From NCBI GenBank assembly GCA_029552945.1, contig JAKPDD010000026.1, positions 1 to 60,794 on the forward strand: a stretch of DNA of 60,794 bases, written 5' to 3'. This DNA is from Spirochaetota bacterium. Lineage in GTDB: Bacteria > Spirochaetota > GWB1-36-13 > JAKPDD01. Made by a program: the position numbers and the translations under genes. Each line of letters opens with the position of its first letter. Within the stretch, counting starts at the first letter, position 1. Of this stretch, positions 33,161-52,103 are shown piece by piece. A model generated the notes under the pieces. It worked only from the letters and a program-made list of their open reading frames with translations. It did no database searches and had not been told where the DNA came from.

Positions 33161-36100
33161 TCATATTTTCTTTAAAACCAGCATTGTAATATCATCTTCT
33201 TGATCAGCCATCCAAGAATCAACTGCTTCAATAACTGATTCTATAATCTCATGTGGAGTTTTATTTCTATTTTTCATTACAACATCAAACAGCCTTTTTT
33301 CACCAAACATTTCAGCTTCTTTGTGTTTTTTCCTTTCATTTTTTAAAATATTTTTAGCCTCTGTTATACCATCAGAATAGAAAAATATTAGGTCTCCCTT
33401 ATTAAGCTTATACTTTTCAGATTCTTGATTTAGGACTGCATCTTCCATAATTCCAACTAAAAAACCAGAGGATGGTATTGTTTTAATTTCACCATTTGAA
33501 GTGCATATAAAGGGTTCAGCATGGTCATTACCAAATATTTCAAAATTACCATCTTTATCAAACCTAAACAATCTTAATGTCATATACATATGGGAATATT
33601 CATTTTTCATTGTTCTTTTTGAAATTCTTTCCTGAATATTTTTGTAGAGTGTTCTATTTATTATTTGATACAATTCATGAATTGGCTTTTTCTTAATATC
33701 ATTATTTTCAATTATAGTATTAAAAGACACCTCAGCCATCATCATAACAAGACCTGACTTTAATCCATGACCTGATACATCTCCAAATACACCAAAATAA
33801 GGTTCTTCATCAAGGTATATGTCATAATAATCACCCCCTACTTCAGCTGCTGTTCTCATAAAAGCGGCAACCTCATAGTATTGATTTTCTTTAATGAATG
33901 GTAGAATTGATGTTTGAATATTTTTTGCTATCTCCATCTCCTGTTCGATTTTTGCCTTTTCTTGCATTTTCTGATACAGTCTTGCATTTTCTATTGATAT
34001 AGCAGCCTGAGTTGCAAATGCTTTTAAGAGTTCAAAATTATCTTTTGTAAAAACACCCTTTACCTCTCTATTATCAAGATAGATAGCACCTAACATTTTC
34101 TGTGATGTTCTTATTGGGACCGTGATTATTGATTTTATTTCTGATTTTATTTTGTTATCAATATTATCATAATTTTCAAGGTCTTCAATAATCTGAGCTT
34201 TTGATGTCTTTATTGTTTTCTCTACTATATTTTCTGGATAATAAATTTTTTCTTTTATCTCAAGCCCATCAGCACCAACCATTAATACTGGAGAAAAATT
34301 AGATCTTTCTGGATCATCAAGGTTATCATACAAAAATAGAATACCTATTTGAGCACCTGATGTTTTCATTGCAAGAAACATTATTTTTCTTAGAAGTTCA
34401 TCCATATTATATGACTTTACAAGCTCTTCTGATGCCTGTAAGAGTGCTTTTAACATGATTTGTGAAGTAAATTGTGTCTGAGTTTTTGTATAAGTATATG
34501 TTTTTGTTGCCTCAAAATCTTTATCTTCTGTTTCTTCTGAAATAAAATCTTCATTATTTCCTGAGATAGCTTTTATTATATTATCAATATTTTTAATTTC
34601 ATTTTTTAGGTCTCTTGATATGTAAAATTTTTTTATCTCATCATAGAGTTTATGACCCTCACTTATATTACCTTTAAGTATTAAAACTTGAGCTTTTAAG
34701 CCTAAATTGTAATGGTAAAGATATTCGTAATACTTACCTATTGATTTCACTATTCCAAGTATTTTATCAATAATAGATAAACATTTGTCAAAGTCTGGCT
34801 GTAATTGAGAAAGTTCATCATAAACTTCAAGCCTTAATTTCCATTGTTCAAATATTTTTGGATTTGATATACCAACATACTTTAGACCCTCTTCAAAATA
34901 CTTTTTTCCTAATTCTTTTTTGCCAATAACATAGTATGTTTCTGAAATTGTAAACAACAACATCCACAAGCCTATAATTATATTATGCTCCTTAGACATT
35001 TCGATAGAAGATATCATATATTTAATACCTTCTTCAAATCTTAACATATTTATGTATGCCCTTCCAATATTGAATGTTATATTACTTTCAAGTGTAATAT
35101 TTTTAAGTTCTTTAGCCATCTCGAGTGCTTTTTTATTGTATTCTAGTGCATCGAGTGGATCACCAATCATAGAATAGACACTTGCTTTGAAAAAATATAT
35201 ATATAACCTATTAAGATTATTTCTTACTATATTTTTGCCCTCAATTAAATTGTTTATCTTTGTGATAATCTCTATTAATCTATAATTATTTTTTAATAAA
35301 CTTATTATATTTTCTCCCTCCAGTATTTTCTTGTTAGTTATTGTTAACCTTTTGTTTATTTCATTAATTATAGTAATATAAGTTTCTTTTAATCTATCTT
35401 TTTTTCTTTTATTTTCTCTGTTTAATATAATGCTATTAATTATAAGTTCATAATCCAACAATTCTTTAGAATCTTCAGATAAAATAGATTCTAATATGTT
35501 TTTTGCTTCCATTAATTCTTCATTAAAAATGAAAAAAAGATCATCATATGGTATGTATTCATCTGTAAGCTTTTTTATTATTGAAATAGCATCTTTTTTA
35601 AGACCTACTGCAGCATAAGATTGTGCTAATATTCCAAGTGAGTATATCCATTCAAGCTCTTCTTCTTTGGAAAGGAGTTTAAGTCCTTTTTGGATATTTT
35701 CTATAGCATCACTAAAATTAGCCATATAACAATGTGCCCTTCCTATTGCACAATAAGGTATTGCAAGAAGGTTATTAAGTTTTAATTCTTCAGCAAGTGG
35801 AATTACCATAGAATAAAATTGCATTGCTGATACCTGATTACCAACAAAATAGTAGTTTTTTCCAAGCATATAGTAACAGTATGCAAGTTCTTTATTTAAT
35901 TTGTTTTGCTGAGCTATTTTTATTGTCTCTTCAAGTAATTTTATACTTTCTTTATACATAGCAAGTTGAAAATATATTTCAACTATTTTTATAGTAAGAT
36001 TGATTTTTCTTAGACTATTCCTTTTGGTTGTATTTTTATCTTCTTCAAAAGAATCTAATATATTTAAAGCATTCAAATAAAAAGAGCTTGCTATTTTAAG

Positions 36101-38332
36101 AGCAAATGAAGATAATGCAATATCCCCTGCTTCCTTATTGTAAATATAAGCATCACTCTTTTTATCTGCCTCCATATAATGGTAGGCAAGCATAAATACT
36201 TTTTCATTTCCTTTATAAAAGTCTTTTATAATATCACCTGCTATTCTGTGAAGGGTTTTGTATTCGTTAATATCTATTTCCGAAGTCAGAATACTTATCA
36301 TTTTATCATGAGAAAAAGAATATAAGATGTCACCTTTTTCTGTTATCTTTTCTTCTATAATCCTTGATTTAATTGCTTCATTAAGAGAGTTTAAAACATA
36401 TTCTTTTGAATATTTTTCTAAGTTATTTAATTTAGAATATTTTTCTATAAGTTCATAAAGTATTTTAAAATTAAACTCTCTGCCTAGTATTGATGCAATT
36501 TTAATAACTTTTTTTGTATTATCATCAATATTTGAAAGTCTTATCAATATATTGTCAACTATAGTTCCCGCGAGTTTTTTATTAGCCATTTTTTTAAGAT
36601 CAACAACCCACTTATCAGAATCCTGTTTTATTATACCATCTTCAACTAAGTTTTTTATATTTTCTATTAATATAAGTGGGTTACCACCTACTGACTCATA
36701 GAGCTTTAGGGCAAGTTCAGTAATATTATCTATTTTACCAAATATTTCAGTTATTAAATCTTTAGTTTCTTCAAGATCAAAATCCTGAATATTCAGTATA
36801 GACATTCTATTCTCAGAAGACTCTCTTTTAATAAAATCTATAAATTCTTTCAGTTCAAGTGATAAATCTTCACGTATCAATAAAAGTATATATATTCTTT
36901 TATTTAAAATTTCATTATGAAAAATTTTAAATAACTGGATAGTGTCATCATCCCAGAAATGTACGTCATCAAACACAAGTGTTAAAGGAAATATCTCTGA
37001 TACTGATTTGAAAAATGTTATTATGCTATCTAAGAAAACTTCCTTTTCCTTTCTTGAGAATAAAAAGTTTTCTGGCAACTCTCCTACTATGTTTTTCATC
37101 GCTAAAATAAATTTTGATAATATTTTCCCATCTTCTCCTAGATCGTTTTTAATTTTATTTAGTATTTCATCTTTTCTATCTTTTGAATATTTGAATATTT
37201 TATTTATTATATTTTCAATTGAATTAATTACAGGAAAATATGGATATTTTTTGTTTCTCTCATCGCTTATATTGTATATATACATAATTTTTTTATTATA
37301 TGCATATTTTTCGAGTTCTTGAACAAGCCTTGTTTTTCCTACTCCTGACTTTCCTATTATTAAGGTTGAAAAACCTTTATTAAGTAATATGCTATTGATC
37401 TTATCTAATAGGTGTTTTATCTCTCTTTTTCTGCCAACAAGAATGGTTGTATAATTTATTTTTTTTATTCTATCTTTAAGACCTAAATCAAGATAGACTG
37501 TCATTTTTTGTTCATCTGTAAGAGACAAATATTTTTTTAAGTCTTCAGCAAGCCCGTAAGCAGTCTGATACCTTTCGTCCGGGTCTTTTTTAATAAGTTT
37601 AAGTATTATCTTATTTATTATTGGGGAAAGTTCTGGGACAATATTTTTCGGTTCCTCAGGAATTTTTGCAATATGCTGGTAAATAAGTTCTTCGGGGGTT
37701 TCAGAATAATACGGTAATCTCCCAGTAATAAGCTGATAAAGCAATATGCCTAAAGAATAAAGGTCAGAACGTGTATCTATAGGTCTTTTAAGAATTCCAC
37801 TTTGCTCTGGAGACATATATGCAAAACTACCCTCAATCTTGTAGTTAAGACTTGTTAAACTTTGAAAGTCTATAAGATTTGCTATACCAAAATCCAATAT
37901 TTTTATACTATTATCTTTCTTTACCATTATATTACTTGGTTTTATATCTCTGTGAACAATATTCTGAGAATGTACATAATCAAGTGCCTCCGCTATTTTG
38001 ATAATTATTTTTATTTTTTCATCAATAGACACTTTACTGTTTATGAAATCTTTAAGACTTACACCTTCAATATACTCAGTTACTATATAAAGGTATTTAT
38101 CTTTTTTTATAAGTTCTATAAACTTTACAATGCTTGGATAATTAAGCTTTTTAAGATTATCTGCCTCTCTTTTAAACCTCAGAAAAGTTTCGCTCTCAAC
38201 CTCAACATCTGTTTTTAATGTTTTAATTGCAAAAATATTTTTACTATTTAAATTAATTGCTTTATAGACAACACCCATACCACCTGATGCTATTTCTTCT
38301 ATTATCTGATAGTTATCAATAATTTTTTGCAT
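33161..38332 (-). CDS. Giant signalling protein: Ser/Thr kinase, AAA-type ATPase, helical repeats, GAF, SpoIIE phosphatase (copy 1)
   Basis: This 1723-residue cytoplasmic protein has five parts. Residues 1-265 are an active-looking kinase with glycine loop A-S-G-G-M-G-V-V-Y-K-A, catalytic H-R-D-I-K-P-S-N near 130 and D-F-G near 148. At about 295-560 is a P-loop ATPase of the PknK/MalT kind, with Walker A G-K-S-G-V-G-K-T near 325 and Walker B L-V-F-D-D-V-H near 452. Helical TPR-like repeats follow (about 600-1290), then a GAF domain (about 1300-1460). Last is a PP2C/SpoIIE phosphatase (about 1465-1723) with G-G-D-Y-Y-D, G-D-V-S-G-H-G, Y-S-D-G-I-T-E-A and E-D-D-I-T-M intact. The chain can in principle both phosphorylate and dephosphorylate. 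It lies 100 bases downstream of its paralogue. Confidence 0.9.
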   Translation of the reverse strand: MQKIIDNYQIIEEIASGGMGVVYKAINLNSKNIFAIKTLKTDVEVESETFLRFKREADNLKKLNYPSIVKFIELIKKDKYLYIVTEYIEGVSLKDFINSKVSIDEKIKIIIKIAEALDYVHSQNIVHRDIKPSNIMVKKDNSIKILDFGIANLIDFQSLTSLNYKIEGSFAYMSPEQSGILKRPIDTRSDLYSLGILLYQLITGRLPYYSETPEELIYQHIAKIPEEPKNIVPELSPIINKIILKLIKKDPDERYQTAYGLAEDLKKYLSLTDEQKMTVYLDLGLKDRIKKINYTTILVGRKREIKHLLDKINSILLNKGFSTLIIGKSGVGKTRLVQELEKYAYNKKIMYIYNISDERNKKYPYFPVINSIENIINKIFKYSKDRKDEILNKIKNDLGEDGKILSKFILAMKNIVGELPENFLFSRKEKEVFLDSIITFFKSVSEIFPLTLVFDDVHFWDDDTIQLFKIFHNEILNKRIYILLLIREDLSLELKEFIDFIKRESSENRMSILNIQDFDLEETKDLITEIFGKIDNITELALKLYESVGGNPLILIENIKNLVEDGIIKQDSDKWVVDLKKMANKKLAGTIVDNILIRLSNIDDNTKKVIKIASILGREFNFKILYELIEKYSKLNNLEKYSKEYVLNSLNEAIKSRIIEEKITEKGDILYSFSHDKMISILTSEIDINEYKTLHRIAGDIIKDFYKGNEKVFMLAYHYMEADKKSDAYIYNKEAGDIALSSFALKIASSFYLNALNILDSFEEDKNTTKRNSLRKINLTIKIVEIYFQLAMYKESIKLLEETIKIAQQNKLNKELAYCYYMLGKNYYFVGNQVSAMQFYSMVIPLAEELKLNNLLAIPYCAIGRAHCYMANFSDAIENIQKGLKLLSKEEELEWIYSLGILAQSYAAVGLKKDAISIIKKLTDEYIPYDDLFFIFNEELMEAKNILESILSEDSKELLDYELIINSIILNRENKRKKDRLKETYITIINEINKRLTITNKKILEGENIISLLKNNYRLIEIITKINNLIEGKNIVRNNLNRLYIYFFKASVYSMIGDPLDALEYNKKALEMAKELKNITLESNITFNIGRAYINMLRFEEGIKYMISSIEMSKEHNIIIGLWMLLFTISETYYVIGKKELGKKYFEEGLKYVGISNPKIFEQWKLRLEVYDELSQLQPDFDKCLSIIDKILGIVKSIGKYYEYLYHYNLGLKAQVLILKGNISEGHKLYDEIKKFYISRDLKNEIKNIDNIIKAISGNNEDFISEETEDKDFEATKTYTYTKTQTQFTSQIMLKALLQASEELVKSYNMDELLRKIMFLAMKTSGAQIGILFLYDNLDDPERSNFSPVLMVGADGLEIKEKIYYPENIVEKTIKTSKAQIIEDLENYDNIDNKIKSEIKSIITVPIRTSQKMLGAIYLDNREVKGVFTKDNFELLKAFATQAAISIENARLYQKMQEKAKIEQEMEIAKNIQTSILPFIKENQYYEVAAFMRTAAEVGGDYYDIYLDEEPYFGVFGDVSGHGLKSGLVMMMAEVSFNTIIENNDIKKKPIHELYQIINRTLYKNIQERISKRTMKNEYSHMYMTLRLFRFDKDGNFEIFGNDHAEPFICTSNGEIKTIPSSGFLVGIMEDAVLNQESEKYKLNKGDLIFFYSDGITEAKNILKNERKKHKEAEMFGEKRLFDVVMKNRNKTPHEIIESVIEAVDSWMADQEDDITMLVLKKI

Positions 38333-38432
38333 TTTAAGTTTTCTCCTTAAAATAAACTCAAATATCTATAAAATGATCTTTAACTGAATTTTATCAGAGT
38401 AAAGTATAAAAACATATTATTTTTACCTAATT

Positions 38433-41400
38433 TTATTTTTTCTTTATTATAAGCATAGTAATGTCATCTTCCTGTTCAACCATCCAGGAATCAACAGCAT
38501 CTATTATAGAGTTTATTATTTCTGATGGCGACTTATCTCTGTTCCTGGCAACTATATCAAATAACCTCTCCTCACCAAACATTTCTCTAGCTTTTTTGTT
38601 ATTTCCTTTACTCTCATTTTTGGCCTCAGTTATTCCATCTGAATATAGGACAAGTATATCTCCGCTTTTAAGTTTAAACTCAGTAGGGTTACCTTTCATG
38701 ACTGCATCTTCTACAATTCCAATTAAAAACCCTGATGAAGGTATTGGAGTAATCTCACCTGTATCTTTTCTGCAAATAAAAGGTTCTGCATGGTCGTTAC
38801 CAAACATCTGGAAGTTACCGTCTTTATCAAATCTAAATAACCTGAAAGTCATATACATGTGTGAATAACCACCCTTTTTACTTTTCTTTGAGAGCCTACC
38901 CTGTATATTCTCATATAGTGTTTTATTTATAACTTGATAAATATATTCTATCGGCTTATTCTTAAGGTCAGTGTCTTTCATAACTGTATTAAAAGATACC
39001 TCAGCCATCATCATAACAAGACCTGACTTAAGCCCATGTCCTGATACATCCCCAAAAACACCAAAGTAAGGTTCATTATCAAGGTAAATATCGTAGTAAT
39101 CACCCCCAACTTCTGTTGCTGTCCTCATAAAACCAGCAATGTCATAATACTGGTTTTCTTTTATAAAAGGAAGTATGGATGTTTGGATATCTTTAGCTAT
39201 CTCCATTTCCTGTTCAATTCTTGCTTTTTCCTGAACCTGTTTATAAAGTCTTGCATTCTCTATTGATATAGCAGCCTGTGTAGCAAAAGCTTTTAATAGT
39301 TCAAACTTATCTTTTGTAAAAACACCCTTTACTTCTCTATTATCAAGATATATAGCACCTAAAATTTTCTGTGATGTTTTAACAGGAACAGTTATAACAG
39401 ACTTAATTTTTGTTTTCAATTCCTCATCAAAATTTTCTTTTTCAAGGTTTTCAATAAGTTGAGCTCTTGAAGTTGTTATTGTCTTTTCTACAATTAGTTT
39501 AGGATATAGCAGTTCATCTTTAATTATTTTACCGTCTTGATCAACTTTTAAAGCTGGTATAATACTGGAGTTCTTAATATCATCAAGATTTTCATACAAA
39601 AATAGTATTCCGTATTGAGCACCTGATGTCTTCATAGCAAGAAACATTATTTTATTGAGAAGTTCTTCCATTTGATATGATTTTGCAAGTTCTTCTGATG
39701 CTTCAAGTAATGACTTAAGTTGTAATTGTGATGAAAATTGAGTTTGAGACTTTGTAAGTGTTGCAGTATATGTACTTGTAACTTCCATATCTTCCACAGC
39801 AGGTATTTCAGTTTCACCCAAAATTCTTTGTTTTAAATACTTGGCTTTATTTATATCAATATCAAGGTCTCTTGATGCATAAAATGCTATGACCTCATCA
39901 TAGATCTTTTCAGCCTCTTGCCTATTACCTTTAGAAAAAAGAATAAATGATTTTGTTAAAAGATTGTAATAATAAAAGTATTCATAGTATTTTCCAACTT
40001 CTTTTGATATTTCTAATGCCTTTTCAATAAGATTAAAACATTTATCATAATCAGGTGATAATAAGGATAATTCATCTAAGGCTTCAAGTCTTAGTTTCCA
40101 CTGTTCAATTATTTTTGGATTTGATATACCTACGTATTTTTTCCCTTCCTCAAATGCCTCTTTAGCTGACTCTCTATTACCAACAGTATAATAATTTTCA
40201 GCAAGTGCAAACATAAGCATCCATATACCAATTAATGTATTATGTTCTTTTGCAAGGTTTATAGCAGATGAAATATTTTTTATAGCTTCCTGAAAATTAA
40301 GAATGTTAGAATAAGCTCTTCCTATACTAAATATAGAGTTTATTTCAAGAGTTGGATTTTTAAGTTCTCTTGACATATCCAGTGCTTTTCTTGACTCAAT
40401 AAGTGCATCTTTTGGATTGCCTATCATTGAATATACACTTGCTTTAAAAAATTGAATATACAGTTTATGTATCTCATTTTTTATTATTCTTTTATTTTTT
40501 ATTTTGTCTACAATATTTTTTACAGAATTTGCTATTCTATCCTTTTTACCAGAAAATTTTGAAAAATTATCTAATATTTTTACATCAGTTTTTATGTCTT
40601 TTTGAGAAGCTTTATTTTCAATAGTATTTATTATTCTTTTTAGAAATTGTTCAATTTGAGATTTATCAATGTTTGAAGTTTTAATATCTATTATATTGTC
40701 AAATATAACGTTTAATGAAAGAAAATCCTTAAAATTTTCTGGAAGAACTTCATTAATCTCTTTTTCTATCTCTTTAATCTCGTTTTCATTATTTTTTAGT
40801 TCATAATCATAAGGAGGAAAATCCTCTAAAAGTCTTGAAATAGTATTTAAAGCCTCTCTCTTAAGACCAACAGCAGCATAAGACTGAGCTAATATTCCAA
40901 GAGAATAGATCCATTCTATCTCCTCATCTTTTGGTAAGATAGCTATTCCTTTCTGTATATAATCAATTGAATCATCAAATTTAGCTATATAACAGTTTGC
41001 TCTTCCAATAGCACAGTAAGGAATAGCAAGTAGTTTATCAAGTTTAAGTTCTTCAGCAATCGGGATTACTTTATAATAAAAATCCATAGCAGCAACTTGA
41101 TTTCCAAGAAAGTAGTAATTTTTTGCAAGCATATAATAACATTTTGCAAGTTCTTCTTTAAATTGATTTTTCTCACTTAATTTCATAGTTTCTTCTAGGA
41201 GAGCAATATTTTCTTTATACATTCCTAATTGAAAATAGATATCCACTATTAAGAGAGCAAGTTCTATTCTTGTTGATATAGCTTTTTTTGTTTCTTTTGC
41301 AAACTGTCGGAGTATATTAAGTGAATTCATGTAAAAGTTAGCAGCCAGTTTTAATGAAAATGAAGATGAAGCAAGGTCACCTGCCTGTTTATTATAATGG

Positions 41401-43589
41401 TATGCTTCTGTTCTCCTATCTCCTTCAAGATAATGATATGCAAGCTTGTATATTTTATCATTGCCATGGTAATTATTTTTTATTACATCCCCTGCTATTC
41501 TGTGATAGTCTCTATAGTCTTTTCTTTCAATTTGAGATATTAAAGATTCAATAACTTTATCATGCGAAAATGAATATATTACCTTTCCACTTTCAGATAT
41601 TTTCTGTTCTATTAAATAATTTTTAGTAGCTTCCTCAAGATTATCAAGTAGTTTTTCTTGGGAAAATTGAGAGTATTTTATATTTATTTTCGAGTATTCC
41701 TTAATTATCTGAAAAAGCGTTATAAAATCAAACTCTTTCCCCAATATTGATGCTATTTTTAATATAGATTTTGTTGAATCAGATATTTTTGATATCCTTG
41801 ATATTATATTATCAAGTATTGAAGATGAAAATCTAAAATGGGACAATTTTTCAAGATCAACAATCCATCCTTCATTTTTTTGTTTTATAATCTCTTCTTC
41901 TACCAGGACTTTTATGTTTTCTATTAGGAGGAGTGCATTTCCGCTTGTTGCTTCATAAAGTCTTGCTGAAACTTCAGGTAGGCCCAAATATACATTTCCA
42001 AATATTTCCAGTATGAGAGAATCAACATCATCAGGAGCAAAGTTTTTAATATCAATTATTGACATATTGGTTTCGCCAGCTTCTTTTCTTATGAAATCTA
42101 TTAAGTCTTTCATGTTAATAAGGGATTCTTCCCTTATTGAAAGTAGTATATATATACTATTTTTTCTAAGAGAGCTTTGAATATGTTTAAAAAACTGGAT
42201 ACTACCTTCGTCCCAAAAATGGATATCATCAAAAACAATTATTAATGGTCTTATCTCTGATACTGAAATAAAAAAGTTTTTTAAACTGTCCAAAAAAACT
42301 TCACTCTCTTTTCTATTAAAAACATAATTATCAGGCAATTCACCTAATATATTTTTTAAAACTGGTGATATTTTTGATAATATTTTACCTTCTTCTCCAA
42401 GGTCTTTTATTATTTTTGAAATTGCCTCATTTTTCTTTGATTGCCCAAGTTTTGAAAATAGCTTTATTACACTTTCAATTGATGTAATTACAGAATAAAA
42501 AGGATAGGTCTTATTTCTTTCATCACTTGCAACATATATATAAAAAGCATTTTTTGTGCTGGTATATTTTTGTAATTCCTGTAAAAGTCTAGATTTTCCT
42601 ACCCCTGACTTTCCTATTATTAATGAGGAGAAACCTTTTTTAAGTAGTGTATTGTTTATATTATCAAGTAAGTGTGTAAGTTCCTTTTTTCTATCAACAA
42701 GTGTTGCACTATAATTAACTTTTCTTGTTTTATCTTTTTTACCTAATTCAAGATAAAATGTTTTTTTCTGCTCTTCGTTGAGTTGAAGATATATTTTCAG
42801 GTCTTCAGCAAGTCCATAAGCAGTCTGATACCTTTCGTCCGGGTCTTTTTTAATAAGCTTAAGTATTATCTTATTTATTATTGGAGAAAGCTCTGGAACA
42901 ATATTTTTTGGTTCTTCAGGTATTTTTGCAATATGTTGATGTATAAGTTCACCAACATCTTTTGCATCATAAGGTAGTTTACCTGTAATAAACTGATAAA
43001 AAAGTATCCCAAGTGAATAAAGGTCAGATCGTGTATCTACTCCTCTTTGCAACATTCCACTCTGTTCAGGTGACATATAGGCAAAACTGCCCTCTATATT
43101 TTTAGATAATGTTATCATATCCTGAAAGTCCATAAGATTTGCAATGCCAAAGTCGAGTATTTTCACAGTATTATCTTTTTTAACCATTATATTACTTGGT
43201 TTTATATCTCTATGAATTATTCCATTCAAATGAACATAGTCAAGTGCTTCCGCTATTTGAAGAATTATCCCTATTTTTTCATCAATTGTAAGATTTGAAT
43301 TAATAAGATCTTTTAAATTATATCCATCAATATATTCAGTTACTATATACAGTCTTTTATCTTTTTCCAACAAATCAATAAATTTTAATATGTTTTTATG
43401 ATTAAGTTTTTCAAGATTTTCAGCTTCTTTTTTAAATCTTATAAAAGCTTCACTACCCACATCAACATAATATTTTAAAGTTTTTATTGCTACAACAGTC
43501 TCATTTTTTTCATCAACTGCTTTATATACAATACCCATACCACCTTCAGATATCTTTTCTATTATTTTATAACCATGAATATTTTCCAT
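38433..43589 (-). CDS. Giant signalling protein: Ser/Thr kinase, AAA-type ATPase, helical repeats, GAF, SpoIIE phosphatase (copy 2)
   Basis: This 1718-residue protein is collinear with the product of 33161-38332. The kinase has I-S-E-G-G-M-G-I-V-Y-K-A, H-R-D-I-K-P-S-N near 130 and D-F-G. The ATPase has G-K-S-G-V-G-K-S near 330 and I-V-F-D-D-I-H. The GAF domain (about 1300-1460) and SpoIIE domain (G-G-D-Y-Y-D, G-D-V-S-G-H-G, Y-S-D-G-I-T-E-A, E-D-D-I-T-M) are intact. Identity is very high in the kinase tail, GAF and phosphatase. It is lower in the repeat region around residues 930-1030, where ligand or partner specificity may differ. GGAGA precedes the ATG. It is the upstream gene of the pair. 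Confidence 0.9.
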   Translation of the reverse strand: MENIHGYKIIEKISEGGMGIVYKAVDEKNETVVAIKTLKYYVDVGSEAFIRFKKEAENLEKLNHKNILKFIDLLEKDKRLYIVTEYIDGYNLKDLINSNLTIDEKIGIILQIAEALDYVHLNGIIHRDIKPSNIMVKKDNTVKILDFGIANLMDFQDMITLSKNIEGSFAYMSPEQSGMLQRGVDTRSDLYSLGILFYQFITGKLPYDAKDVGELIHQHIAKIPEEPKNIVPELSPIINKIILKLIKKDPDERYQTAYGLAEDLKIYLQLNEEQKKTFYLELGKKDKTRKVNYSATLVDRKKELTHLLDNINNTLLKKGFSSLIIGKSGVGKSRLLQELQKYTSTKNAFYIYVASDERNKTYPFYSVITSIESVIKLFSKLGQSKKNEAISKIIKDLGEEGKILSKISPVLKNILGELPDNYVFNRKESEVFLDSLKNFFISVSEIRPLIIVFDDIHFWDEGSIQFFKHIQSSLRKNSIYILLSIREESLINMKDLIDFIRKEAGETNMSIIDIKNFAPDDVDSLILEIFGNVYLGLPEVSARLYEATSGNALLLIENIKVLVEEEIIKQKNEGWIVDLEKLSHFRFSSSILDNIISRISKISDSTKSILKIASILGKEFDFITLFQIIKEYSKINIKYSQFSQEKLLDNLEEATKNYLIEQKISESGKVIYSFSHDKVIESLISQIERKDYRDYHRIAGDVIKNNYHGNDKIYKLAYHYLEGDRRTEAYHYNKQAGDLASSSFSLKLAANFYMNSLNILRQFAKETKKAISTRIELALLIVDIYFQLGMYKENIALLEETMKLSEKNQFKEELAKCYYMLAKNYYFLGNQVAAMDFYYKVIPIAEELKLDKLLAIPYCAIGRANCYIAKFDDSIDYIQKGIAILPKDEEIEWIYSLGILAQSYAAVGLKREALNTISRLLEDFPPYDYELKNNENEIKEIEKEINEVLPENFKDFLSLNVIFDNIIDIKTSNIDKSQIEQFLKRIINTIENKASQKDIKTDVKILDNFSKFSGKKDRIANSVKNIVDKIKNKRIIKNEIHKLYIQFFKASVYSMIGNPKDALIESRKALDMSRELKNPTLEINSIFSIGRAYSNILNFQEAIKNISSAINLAKEHNTLIGIWMLMFALAENYYTVGNRESAKEAFEEGKKYVGISNPKIIEQWKLRLEALDELSLLSPDYDKCFNLIEKALEISKEVGKYYEYFYYYNLLTKSFILFSKGNRQEAEKIYDEVIAFYASRDLDIDINKAKYLKQRILGETEIPAVEDMEVTSTYTATLTKSQTQFSSQLQLKSLLEASEELAKSYQMEELLNKIMFLAMKTSGAQYGILFLYENLDDIKNSSIIPALKVDQDGKIIKDELLYPKLIVEKTITTSRAQLIENLEKENFDEELKTKIKSVITVPVKTSQKILGAIYLDNREVKGVFTKDKFELLKAFATQAAISIENARLYKQVQEKARIEQEMEIAKDIQTSILPFIKENQYYDIAGFMRTATEVGGDYYDIYLDNEPYFGVFGDVSGHGLKSGLVMMMAEVSFNTVMKDTDLKNKPIEYIYQVINKTLYENIQGRLSKKSKKGGYSHMYMTFRLFRFDKDGNFQMFGNDHAEPFICRKDTGEITPIPSSGFLIGIVEDAVMKGNPTEFKLKSGDILVLYSDGITEAKNESKGNNKKAREMFGEERLFDIVARNRDKSPSEIINSIIDAVDSWMVEQEDDITMLIIKKK

Positions 43590-43925: not shown

Positions 43926-46859
43926 ATGATAATAGATACTTTAAAAAACTTTTTAAAAGAGGAACAGTGGACAAGAGCAACAATAGAAAAATATAACGAA
44001 AACGAGTTTAAAGAAATAGATATTTTTATAGAAAAAATTAAATCCTCAAGTCCTGAAGAACTTGATGAAGCCTATAAACTTATAAAAGGATTTGTATCAC
44101 ATAATCCAAGAACAATAGTCGGATTGTATATACTTGGGAATCTTGCATATTTTCTTGGTAAAAAAGATGATTACGATTCTTTCATAAGACTTATAGAAAT
44201 TTTCAAAGAAAACAGAAAAATTAATATAGCAGATTTTTTGCTTAAAAAAATTCTCTCATACGATAAAAATAACATATATGCATTAAAATTGATAATAACT
44301 TTATATCAACAGGAATCTGGTGATAAGAAAGAGGAAAGAATAAAATATATGGAGGACCTTGTCAGAGCCGACGCTAATGATGGGGATACACCTTTTAAAC
44401 TTGGAAAATATTATGAAGAGAAAGCTAAAAACGAAAAAGATCTTAATCTTAAAAAAGAATATGAAATAAAGTCTATAATGTATTATAAAGCATCTTTAAG
44501 AAGATTTGCTAAGTCTTCAAGCCCTAAAATAAACGATATATGGAATATACTTTCATATGAACTCCTTGAGATAGAGAAAGAGCCAAAAGATACTAAAAAA
44601 GATAAGAAACTTGAAATAAACTTTTTTTTAAACATAGCTTCTATAATAGCTGAAAACAATAAGGACATGGCAATTACAATATTAACCGAACTTCTTGGAT
44701 TATATTATCAAGAAGGAATTAATGCAGAAGAAACTTTAAAAGATCTCTTTATAAATAGAGCTATTTCCCTTGCCAAAAAAATATTGGAAATGGACCCTGC
44801 TAATAGAAAAGCAAGGGATAAAATAATAGAAATATATAAAGAAAAATACAAAAATATAAACAATATTGATAAATATATAGAAAATTCTGGACTAAACGAG
44901 AAAAAAATTGATATAATTACTGCAATAAGAAGATTTGAGAAAGAAATACAATTTATGACCTCAAATTATGTATATCATAGGAGCTGGGGGATTGGTAAAA
45001 TTTTAAAAATTGAAGAGGACTGTTTTATAATAATGTTTGATGACAAAAAAGAGCATAAAATGACCTATTCAATGGCATTAAAGTCACTTATACCTTTACC
45101 AGATAATCACATATGGGTATTGAAAAAAGAAAACAAAATACCTAAAATAGTATGGGATAATGTAGAAGAGGAAGAGAATATAAATAAAAATGTTGCTGAA
45201 GTAATAAGGAGTGTTGTACTTAGTTTCCCAGATAGAAATATAACACTAGAGGACTTCAAAATAGAACTCTTACCTGTTATATCTTCTCAAATAACAAAAA
45301 ATATAACAAAGGATTCTCTATGGAACAACTGGTGGAATAAAGCAAAATCAATAATAAAGTCTGATAAACTTATAGGATGTATTAAAGAAGGAAGATTATC
45401 ATATTTCCTTAGAGAAACTGAGATAAGTAATGAAGACGAACTTATAACAGCATTTAATGAAAATAAAGTATTTATGGACAAGTTTAAAGTATTTGACGAG
45501 TTTTATAAAGAAAAATATTATGCAGATTATCCAGATAATTTTAAAGATATGGTATCCTACTTTTATAATATAGCTCATGACCAAAGGTTTTACACTTATG
45601 AAAGACTTTTATCATATGCAGTTTTAAGAATAGTATCAAGAGATAAAGATGTAGATTGGGCTATTAGTTCACAAATAAATTTTGACACAAAAATTTTAAA
45701 TGATTTAGATAAAGTTGTTGAAACACTTGAGATGACATATAGAAATGAATATAGAAAAGAGATATTAAGACTAATTGGTGATTACTTAATAGAAAATAAA
45801 GAAGATTATTTTATAGAAATCTTGAAAAGAGACCCAGCAAAGATAGTTGATCTTGTAATAGATGAGATAAAAAATATATACAAAAATTTAGATCAAGTAG
45901 CTGTTAATGAAAAGATTGAAGATTTTGTAATTGAAATGTTAACCACTAGTTTTAAATACAACCCATATCTTAATTTCTGGGCTGTTAGATATTTTCTTGA
46001 AAAAGAGTTATATAAAAAAAGAGAAATAAGTTTAGAATCCATATACCTTGAACTATTATACAGAATGGATACTCTCGCTAAACTTTCACTACAAAAAAAA
46101 CTTGGTTGGTTTACTATTCCAGTTTCCCAAAATAATGTTAAAGACCTTATAAAATTTGGTGATAATATATTATTCTCGAATAAAAAACTTAACTTTAAAG
46201 ATTTTATATTACAAAATGATATTATTAATAATAAAGAATATATTGAAAAAATATACAGGCTTTTAAGAGACCTTATGGAGTATGAATCCAAAGATAGAAA
46301 AAAGATAATTGAAGAACTTAAAATAAAATACCCAGACCTTGAAAAGAGAACAACAGAAGAGGAAATAATACTCATAAACTATTTAGATGAAAAAATAATA
46401 TGGACGACAACAGAGGGACTTGAAAAACAAAAGAATAAACTTAAAATGTTAAAAACTGAAAAAGAAAAACTAGCAGAAGAATTGCAAAAAGCAAGAGACA
46501 AAGGAGACCTTCGAGAAAATGCAGAATATCAGGCTGCAAGAGAAAAAGAGAGAAATATTAATTCAGAAATAACACAACTTGAAGAAAAAATAAATAGATC
46601 AAAACTTCTGGACCTATCAAGTATTAAAGGAGATAAGGTTATTCCAGGAACTAAAGTTGTTATTGAAAAAAATGGTAAAAAAGAGGAGTATAAGATACTT
46701 GGTTTTTGGGATACGGATGAGACTAAAAACATAATAGCATACAATGCTCCTATAGCAAAAGCAATATTGGGGCTTAAAAAAGGAGAAACAGTTGAGGCTC
46801 TGATAGGTGGAGAAAAAATATCAATAAAGGTAATTGATATTGAACCAGTTAAAATCTAA
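43926..46859 (+). CDS. greA: Transcript cleavage factor GreA with a giant N-terminal extension
   Basis: This 977-residue protein has only about its last 150 residues as GreA. A coiled coil from about 829 (L-E-K-Q-K-N-K-L-K) has the tip G-D-L-R-E-N-A-E-Y-Q-A-A-R-E-K, whose acidic residues act in the RNA polymerase channel to rescue backtracked complexes. A C-terminal FKBP-like domain (about 905-977) holds G-T-K-V-V-I and I-A-Y-N-A-P-I-A-K-A-I-L-G. The first roughly 820 residues are helical, TPR-like at the start, with an S-W-G-I-G-K-I segment near 355. Extended GreA proteins are known from spirochaetes, such as the roughly 900-residue Borrelia form. Their extension has no settled role. GAGG precedes the ATG. 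Confidence 0.9.
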   Translation: MIIDTLKNFLKEEQWTRATIEKYNENEFKEIDIFIEKIKSSSPEELDEAYKLIKGFVSHNPRTIVGLYILGNLAYFLGKKDDYDSFIRLIEIFKENRKINIADFLLKKILSYDKNNIYALKLIITLYQQESGDKKEERIKYMEDLVRADANDGDTPFKLGKYYEEKAKNEKDLNLKKEYEIKSIMYYKASLRRFAKSSSPKINDIWNILSYELLEIEKEPKDTKKDKKLEINFFLNIASIIAENNKDMAITILTELLGLYYQEGINAEETLKDLFINRAISLAKKILEMDPANRKARDKIIEIYKEKYKNINNIDKYIENSGLNEKKIDIITAIRRFEKEIQFMTSNYVYHRSWGIGKILKIEEDCFIIMFDDKKEHKMTYSMALKSLIPLPDNHIWVLKKENKIPKIVWDNVEEEENINKNVAEVIRSVVLSFPDRNITLEDFKIELLPVISSQITKNITKDSLWNNWWNKAKSIIKSDKLIGCIKEGRLSYFLRETEISNEDELITAFNENKVFMDKFKVFDEFYKEKYYADYPDNFKDMVSYFYNIAHDQRFYTYERLLSYAVLRIVSRDKDVDWAISSQINFDTKILNDLDKVVETLEMTYRNEYRKEILRLIGDYLIENKEDYFIEILKRDPAKIVDLVIDEIKNIYKNLDQVAVNEKIEDFVIEMLTTSFKYNPYLNFWAVRYFLEKELYKKREISLESIYLELLYRMDTLAKLSLQKKLGWFTIPVSQNNVKDLIKFGDNILFSNKKLNFKDFILQNDIINNKEYIEKIYRLLRDLMEYESKDRKKIIEELKIKYPDLEKRTTEEEIILINYLDEKIIWTTTEGLEKQKNKLKMLKTEKEKLAEELQKARDKGDLRENAEYQAAREKERNINSEITQLEEKINRSKLLDLSSIKGDKVIPGTKVVIEKNGKKEEYKILGFWDTDETKNIIAYNAPIAKAILGLKKGETVEALIGGEKISIKVIDIEPVKI

Positions 46860-51401: not shown

Positions 51402-51737
51402 TTAAATTGATTTTAAAGCTTCATCAGTTGTTTCATGGATGTCAAAAATATCATCAAACTCAACTATTTTAAATATCTTTGCAACATTAGGTTGTATTTC
51501 AGCAATTTTCATAGTACCATCTACTTCTTTAAGTCTTTTTAAAGTTGAAATAAATACTCTTAAACCACTACTTGATAAATATGATAAGTCTTTAAGATTA
51601 AATATCAGTTTTTTTTCACCCGAATCAATTATTTCATTTATTGCTTGTTCAACTTCTAATGATTTATGGACATCAAGTCTACCGTCTAAATAAATAATCA
51701 AAAAATCATTTTTTTTCTCTGTTTTAACTGAAGACAT
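51402..51737 (-). CDS. STAS-domain anti-sigma-factor antagonist (copy 1)
   Basis: This 111-residue single STAS domain is of the SpoIIAA/RsbV type. The phospho-acceptor region is L-S-Y-L-S-S-S-G-L-R-V, where Ser56 aligns with SpoIIAA Ser58. Such proteins bind an anti-sigma kinase when unphosphorylated and are reactivated by PP2C/SpoIIE phosphatases, which occur in the two giant proteins of this window. No RsbW-like anti-sigma factor is seen here. AGGAGG precedes the ATG. It is closely similar to its upstream neighbour, from which it is separated by 33 bases. Confidence 0.88.
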   Translation of the reverse strand: MSSVKTEKKNDFLIIYLDGRLDVHKSLEVEQAINEIIDSGEKKLIFNLKDLSYLSSSGLRVFISTLKRLKEVDGTMKIAEIQPNVAKIFKIVEFDDIFDIHETTDEALKSI

Positions 51738-51770
51738 TTAATTCCTCCTATATTTTAACTTATATTTATT

Positions 51771-52103
51771 TTAAATTGTTTTTAATGCTTCATCAACTGT
51801 ATCTTTAATATCAAAAATATTATCAAACTCAACCATCTTTAATATCTTATAAACTGTAGGCTGTATACCTACTATTTTCATTACCCCCTCTTTTTCTTTA
51901 AGTTTTTTAAATGTAGAAATAAATACTCTTAAACCACTACTTGATAAATACGATAAGTCTTTAAGATCAAATATCAGTTTTTTTTCACCCGATTCTATAA
52001 GAGCATTAATAGATGACTCAAGTACAGCAGATTCATTAATATCTAATCTACCATTTAAATACACTATGGTAATATTATTTTTCTTTTCAGTTTTTATGTC
52101 CAT
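51771..52103 (-). CDS. STAS-domain anti-sigma-factor antagonist (copy 2)
   Basis: This 110-residue protein has the same family and layout as the adjacent 51402-51737 product. The central block (G-E-K-K-L-I-F-x-L-K-D-L-S-Y-L-S-S-S-G-L) is nearly identical and Ser55 is the expected phosphorylation site. Differences cluster at the N-terminal strands and helix 3. It is the first gene of the STAS-STAS-nadK-recN run, with AAAGG upstream of the ATG. A recent tandem duplication is the simplest origin. Confidence 0.88.
   Translation of the reverse strand: MDIKTEKKNNITIVYLNGRLDINESAVLESSINALIESGEKKLIFDLKDLSYLSSSGLRVFISTFKKLKEKEGVMKIVGIQPTVYKILKMVEFDNIFDIKDTVDEALKTI

Follow-up and report, generated by a model that had tools for sequence, protein, structure and literature searches.

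The window analysed here, the whole 60,794-nucleotide stretch of contig JAKPDD010000026.1 from a Spirochaetota bacterium, carries two long genes of the same design, arranged head to tail on the minus strand. Copy A (38433..43589, 1718 aa) comes first and copy B (33161..38332, 1723 aa) follows after a gap of 100 bp. Both are complete ORFs, and in both the Pfam domains run in the order Pkinase, AAA_16, TPR, GAF, SpoIIE, which agrees with the initial annotation of two tandem 1720-residue proteins joining a kinase, a P-loop ATPase, a GAF domain and a SpoIIE phosphatase. A clear AAGGAG ribosome-binding site precedes the ATG of B, and no terminator-like site was found in the gap. A promoter scan of the region upstream of A was uninformative, with 5 sites where 5.9 would be expected; around the gap the scan gave 6 sites against 2.3 expected, five of the six lying on the opposite strand.

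In copy A, the Hanks-type Ser/Thr kinase domain occupies 42822..43571, the AAA_16 P-loop ATPase 42165..42701, the GAF domain 39261..39671 and the SpoIIE/PP2C phosphatase domain 38442..39062; the counterparts in B lie at 37562..38311, 36914..37441, 33992..34405 and 33170..33799, all on the minus strand. The Pfam assignments stand far above their cut-offs for Pkinase (E-values of 4e-54 in A and 4e-56 in B), AAA_16 (3e-12 and 1e-12) and SpoIIE (4e-34 and 2e-31), as they do for TPR_12 and GAF. Besides AAA_16, a MalT-like TPR match fell under its cut-off, nSTAND3 was matched weakly in one relative (L117), and neither HisKA nor HATPase_c matched A or B at E<=0.01. The residues that we take to be catalytic are all present in both copies. 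Alignment places K36, D128, N133 and D146 (A numbering) in the kinase, the ATPase carries the Walker A motif GKSGVGK[ST] and the Walker B motif FDD, and the four metal-site Asp motifs of PF07228 are conserved as D1497, D1514, D1651 and D1709 (A numbering), so that the earlier statement that both copies keep their catalytic motifs at both ends holds. The kinases are PknB/StkP-like in sequence and are RD-type enzymes carrying Ser/Thr in the activation loop. Ahead of the SpoIIE domain, after the GAF domain and a linker, the alignment shows a conserved (E)IAxxIQxS(I/L)LP stretch, which reads EIAxxIQxSILP in A.

The two proteins are 61% identical, and both the N-terminal and the C-terminal tree group them as a separate clade with 100/100 support, in keeping with the tandem duplication originally claimed. 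A is the slower-evolving copy: in the N-terminal tree the branch of B is about twice as long (0.44 vs 0.21), and despite this longer branch every motif in B is conserved. The same genome (1.87 Mb, 50 contigs) encodes a third homologue on another contig (C3:178211-183016, 1604 aa), with both ends intact and 52% identity to A, and a fourth, distant kinase...SpoIIE protein at C3:19779-24137. Separately, a single genome_contigs scan returned eight distant loci, most of them matched by the kinase part alone. G001, the sole relative of the same order among the genomes searched, contains two proteins that are close homologues (56% and 48%). Either the pair therefore arose by duplication in the lineage of A and B, or G001 has lost the second copy. 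Gene conversion between A and B is not claimed: residues 221-260 are 100% identical in protein, but their codon identity (0.78) is only modestly above the average of 0.61, and exact DNA identity extends over no more than 41 nt.

A and B fit an HstK-like chassis, in which an N-terminal Hanks kinase is followed by AAA_16, TPRs and GAF. The cyanobacterial HstK/cbSTKIII proteins are known kinase-GAF-histidine-kinase relatives that include the tandem duplicates Alr0709/Alr0710 (PMC2176072). Such proteins, named ‘trifunctional serine/threonine-protein kinase/ATP-binding protein/sensor histidine kinase’, were also the best tblastn matches in a plasmid collection (24-28% identity). Like A and B they have an N-terminal Ser/Thr kinase, an AAA-type ATPase and a GAF domain; unlike A and B, they carry a HisKA/HATPase output in place of SpoIIE. 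A protein from plasmid pA of Kovacikia minuta CCNUW1 (NZ_CP083583.1, 1871 aa) shares the Pkinase - AAA_16 - GAF - SpoIIE order, although it is longer, about 27% identical and matched by no TPR family at E<=1e-4.

Single chains holding both a kinase and a phosphatase were reported in 2005 by Krupa and Srinivasan (PMC1262709): one bacterial polypeptide combines a PP2C/SpoIIE-like phosphatase with a Hanks kinase. In contrast to A and B, the phosphatase lies N-terminal to the kinase, and an ATPase, TPRs or GAF are not known to be described for it. SypE of Vibrio fischeri has an N-terminal serine kinase, a middle regulatory domain and a C-terminal PP2C-like phosphatase, and its two catalytic ends share the STAS protein SypA as their target (PMC3610818). 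SypE thus resembles A and B in having a kinase at the N-terminus, a phosphatase at the C-terminus and regulation between them, but its kinase is HPK-like, its regulator is a receiver domain, and it has no ATPase, TPR or GAF. The kinase end of A and B is a Pkinase domain (PF00069), without the RsbW/HPK-like kinase domain of the SypE type (no HATPase at E<=0.01). A literature search that reached few subscription papers found no functional study of a kinase-AAA-TPR-GAF-SpoIIE protein; the exact architecture was not found to be functionally characterised in the literature searched, while the architecture class itself is known. A and B are ordinary members of a known modular family, and the small new point is the pair-specific insert described below.

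The initial annotation had suggested a survey of how widespread the fusion is. From the matches listed in a search of 41 genomes we took 60 stretches, and 68 proteins, including those of the own genome and the window copies, were aligned. Among these 68 chassis proteins, which were sampled by similarity to A so that proportions are not frequencies, 36 have a SpoIIE output (34 by profile, L129 and L137 by Pfam), 11 a C-terminal GGDEF domain (by motif), five a LuxR-type HTH (L091 and L124 by Pfam, three by their tails) and four a guanylate cyclase; one ends in HD_5, one in GGDEF plus a histidine kinase, one has a cyclase-like tail (L095), one is unclassified (L140) and eight are incomplete. Of the 41 genomes, 11 or more contain the SpoIIE form, which the cyanobacterium Kovacikia minuta has as well. 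The design is known, widespread and modular. SpoIIE and GGDEF forms are interspersed in the tree of chassis proteins, in which the SpoIIE members L133, L129 and L137 are labelled OTH and counts of output changes are slightly off. Tandem chassis genes are common, with two each in L097, L098, L102 and L106. The kinase-ATPase-TPR-GAF unit is a reusable chassis, joined to at least five outputs other than SpoIIE. The own genome also encodes a 1966-residue protein (G000:C47:57354-63092, L019) with AAA_16, TPR, GAF, GGDEF, HisKA and HATPase; the kinase at its N-terminus scored 60 bits in the genome search with no match in the protein scan at E<=1e-4, and may be degenerate.

Both catalytic ends could be read in 31 of the 36 SpoIIE members, 29 by alignment plus L129 and L137, whose phosphatase residues were read by eye. 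Set aside were L096, in which the contig cuts the phosphatase, L100, L122 and L139, for which no kinase was read, and L115, whose N-terminus is incomplete. All 31 have their phosphatase Asp residues intact (29/29 by alignment plus L129 and L137), and 28 retain the K/D/N/D residues of the kinase (26/29 by alignment plus the same two). The three exceptions, L119, L121 and L131, pair a pseudokinase with a live phosphatase, and the reverse was seen in 0 of 31. L119 and L121 are sisters in the tree, and the three cases thus stand for at least two events of kinase loss. Kinase residues are also kept in all 11 GGDEF members and in the cyclase members. The usefulness of the kinase thus extends to many enzymatic outputs and does not lie specifically in opposing the phosphatase. 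In a separate observation, the kinase catalytic residues are degenerate in all five members with a LuxR-type HTH (L091-L094 of G001 and L124 of G036), four of which come from one genome and one clade. How the integrity of the kinase goes with the type of output among chassis members is a correlation that can be tested.

These patterns bear on the self-contained switch originally proposed, in which a single mark would be both written and erased by the same chain, either because kinase and phosphatase act on one target or because the phosphatase resets the kinase activation loop. The domains and the intact motifs at both ends on which that proposal was built stand, and extend to the C3 copy, both G001 homologues and the 28 SpoIIE members noted above; the RD-type kinases and their activation-loop Ser/Thr also speak for it, and the opposed ends of SypE acting on SypA provide a precedent (PMC3610818). 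The conclusion drawn from them, however, becomes one possibility only. The pseudokinase members retain their phosphatase, the kinase is kept equally well beside outputs that leave it no phosphatase to oppose, namely GGDEF and cyclase, and the SypE kinase is an HPK-like domain rather than a Hanks-type one. We consider a self-contained switch unlikely.

Where the two copies part company is the helical part of the TPR region. As the initial annotation had noted for the region around 930-1030, A and B differ most here: across the 106 residues aligned at 921-1030 identity drops to 25%, whereas all other segments keep 50-72%. The divergence coincides with an insert of about 105 residues (residues about 923-1030; 40500..40823 in A, and its counterpart, 25% identical, at 35243..35560 in B, both on the minus strand) that is found only in A and B among five close sequences, the C3 copy and both G001 homologues being without it. 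The two inserts are homologous (global alignment z = 5.3, with none of 1000 shuffles scoring as high), and this alignment rules out independent acquisition in A and B. The simplest history would be gain before the A/B duplication and fast divergence since. In an AlphaFold2 (AF2) model covering the TPR region, with a mean pLDDT of 76.8, ordered helices run through the insert, which is a lineage-specific ordered helical element and a new detail of the pair. The initial annotation had suggested that the copies may read different signals; the analyses of the insert yielded no sign that it acts as a sensor. A search of the own genome gave no other significant match to it (best other E 0.05), and a mobile or known domain was rejected on that ground and because the one candidate name, SUKH_6 (E 0.008), fell under its cut-off. 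A fold search with the TPR model returned TPR proteins, LGN by E-value and Rap 4gyo as the best by TM-score to target (0.67), too generic for a ligand to be named from them.

Alternatively, A and B might be redundant paralogues maintained for dosage, in which the insert serves as a neutral spacer and signals have not diverged. Identical architecture and residues, the fully supported A/B clade in both trees and the lack of a significant relative of the insert elsewhere in the own genome are consistent with this. The depth of divergence between the copies (61% identity), the doubled branch of B combined with complete conservation of its motifs, and the predicted helical order of the insert speak against it, and we regard redundancy as quite improbable.

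The reading that we hold to be probable, if by no means certain, is that A and B are soluble HstK-like sensors whose ATPase, TPR and GAF domains control an RsbU/SpoIIE-type phosphatase acting on STAS proteins. SpoIIE/RsbU phosphatases classically dephosphorylate phosphorylated STAS proteins, RsbU-class enzymes dimerise via a helical linker that positions the switch helices, and it is proposed that GAF, PAS and receiver inputs can be swapped between phosphatases of the PPM type, histidine kinases and GGDEF enzymes (PMC12143880). The general-stress-response phosphatases RsbU, RsbP and RsbZ share with A and B a sensor (GAF in RsbZ), a helical linker and a PPM phosphatase with switch helices, and differ from them in having no fused kinase, ATPase or TPR. 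The (E)IAxxIQxS(I/L)LP stretch sits where PMC12143880 puts the linker and switch element. A single-sequence AF2 model of the GAF-SpoIIE part reached a pLDDT of 36 and was discarded.

We infer the substrate, direction of control and signal of A and B as follows. The kinase, the STAND-like ATPase and the TPR superhelix would together sense a cue in the form of a nucleotide, protein or peptide, and the GAF domain and helical linker would pass this state on to set the phosphatase switch helices. The active phosphatase, as family knowledge and gene content suggest, would remove phosphate from at least one STAS anti-anti-sigma-like protein, and the dephosphorylated STAS protein would release the partner of an HATPase_c_2 kinase. 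The Hanks kinase, probably active, may phosphorylate itself or a separate target. Most likely, the phosphatase end switches a partner protein on and does not simply undo the kinase.

The own genome holds candidate partners: 11 STAS places over the cut-off (the sequence of one is that of a SulP-type transporter, and in two the match includes a stop), seven HATPase_c_2 places likewise over it and an RsbV/RsbW-like neighbour pair at C34:45220-45932. Within the window, two tandem single-domain STAS genes on the minus strand (51402-51737 and 51771-52103, together 51402..52103; 68% identical to each other), followed by an NAD kinase and a RecN/SMC-type gene, are candidate substrates of the A/B phosphatase. 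G001 has one STAS gene in the same gene order, which shares 76% identity with the 51402 copy and 59% with the 51771 copy; it lies at a contig start, so that a second copy may exist just beyond. A and B themselves have no adjoining STAS or HATPase_c_2 gene, this pair, about 8 kb away, being the closest STAS genes. A scan of 62 loci with a 5-sequence profile, in flanks of mostly 1-1.5 kb, found STAS genes beside only one, L133 of G028; the scan was repeated with 11 sequences on 31 loci outside the window, covering 32 SpoIIE genes. At L133 one STAS gene lies directly downstream of the kinase...SpoIIE gene and carries MDSSALG, which we take to be the usual phosphosite motif; the L133 SpoIIE domain is a divergent subtype. 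We counted in favour of an RsbU-type phosphatase the intact domains, the 31/31 phosphatases, the chassis with other outputs, the STAS, HATPase_c_2 and SpoIIE-domain genes of the genome, the conserved stretch ahead of SpoIIE and the L133 neighbour, and against it the missing STAS neighbour at A and B, the single STAS neighbour among 62 loci, the divergent L133 subtype and the kinase kept intact in 28 of 31. It is very unlikely, even though A and the 51402 STAS gene are the conserved copies while B and the 51771 gene have diverged faster, that A and B are Hanks-kinase analogues of SypE, each phosphorylating and dephosphorylating the same STAS protein with the ATPase/TPR/GAF core picking the winning end, and that with the STAS pair they form two insulated channels arisen in parallel.

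A and B, the third copy and the relatives with other outputs or dead kinases offer a natural series on the role of a Hanks kinase fused to a SpoIIE phosphatase. A kinase that opposes the phosphatase would mean that eukaryote-like kinases have a direct input into partner switching; otherwise the kinase would serve as an allosteric or autoregulatory input.

Divergently upstream of A lies a gene for a long-form GreA (window 43926-46859, 977 aa, PRK14720-like but below the model cut-off). A functional link to A is not claimed: greA is missing beside the C3 copy, and next to the G001 homologue at C108, which runs up to a contig edge, none of the other window genes was found. The own genome has 20 SpoIIE-domain places (one with internal stops) and seven Pkinase places over the cut-off, and with its STAS and HATPase_c_2 places (11 and seven) in 1.87 Mb looks rich in partner-switching parts for its size. 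One SpoIIE match, at G000:C2:44667-45232, has two TAA codons inside it and continues in a second piece, and is probably a broken phosphatase gene.
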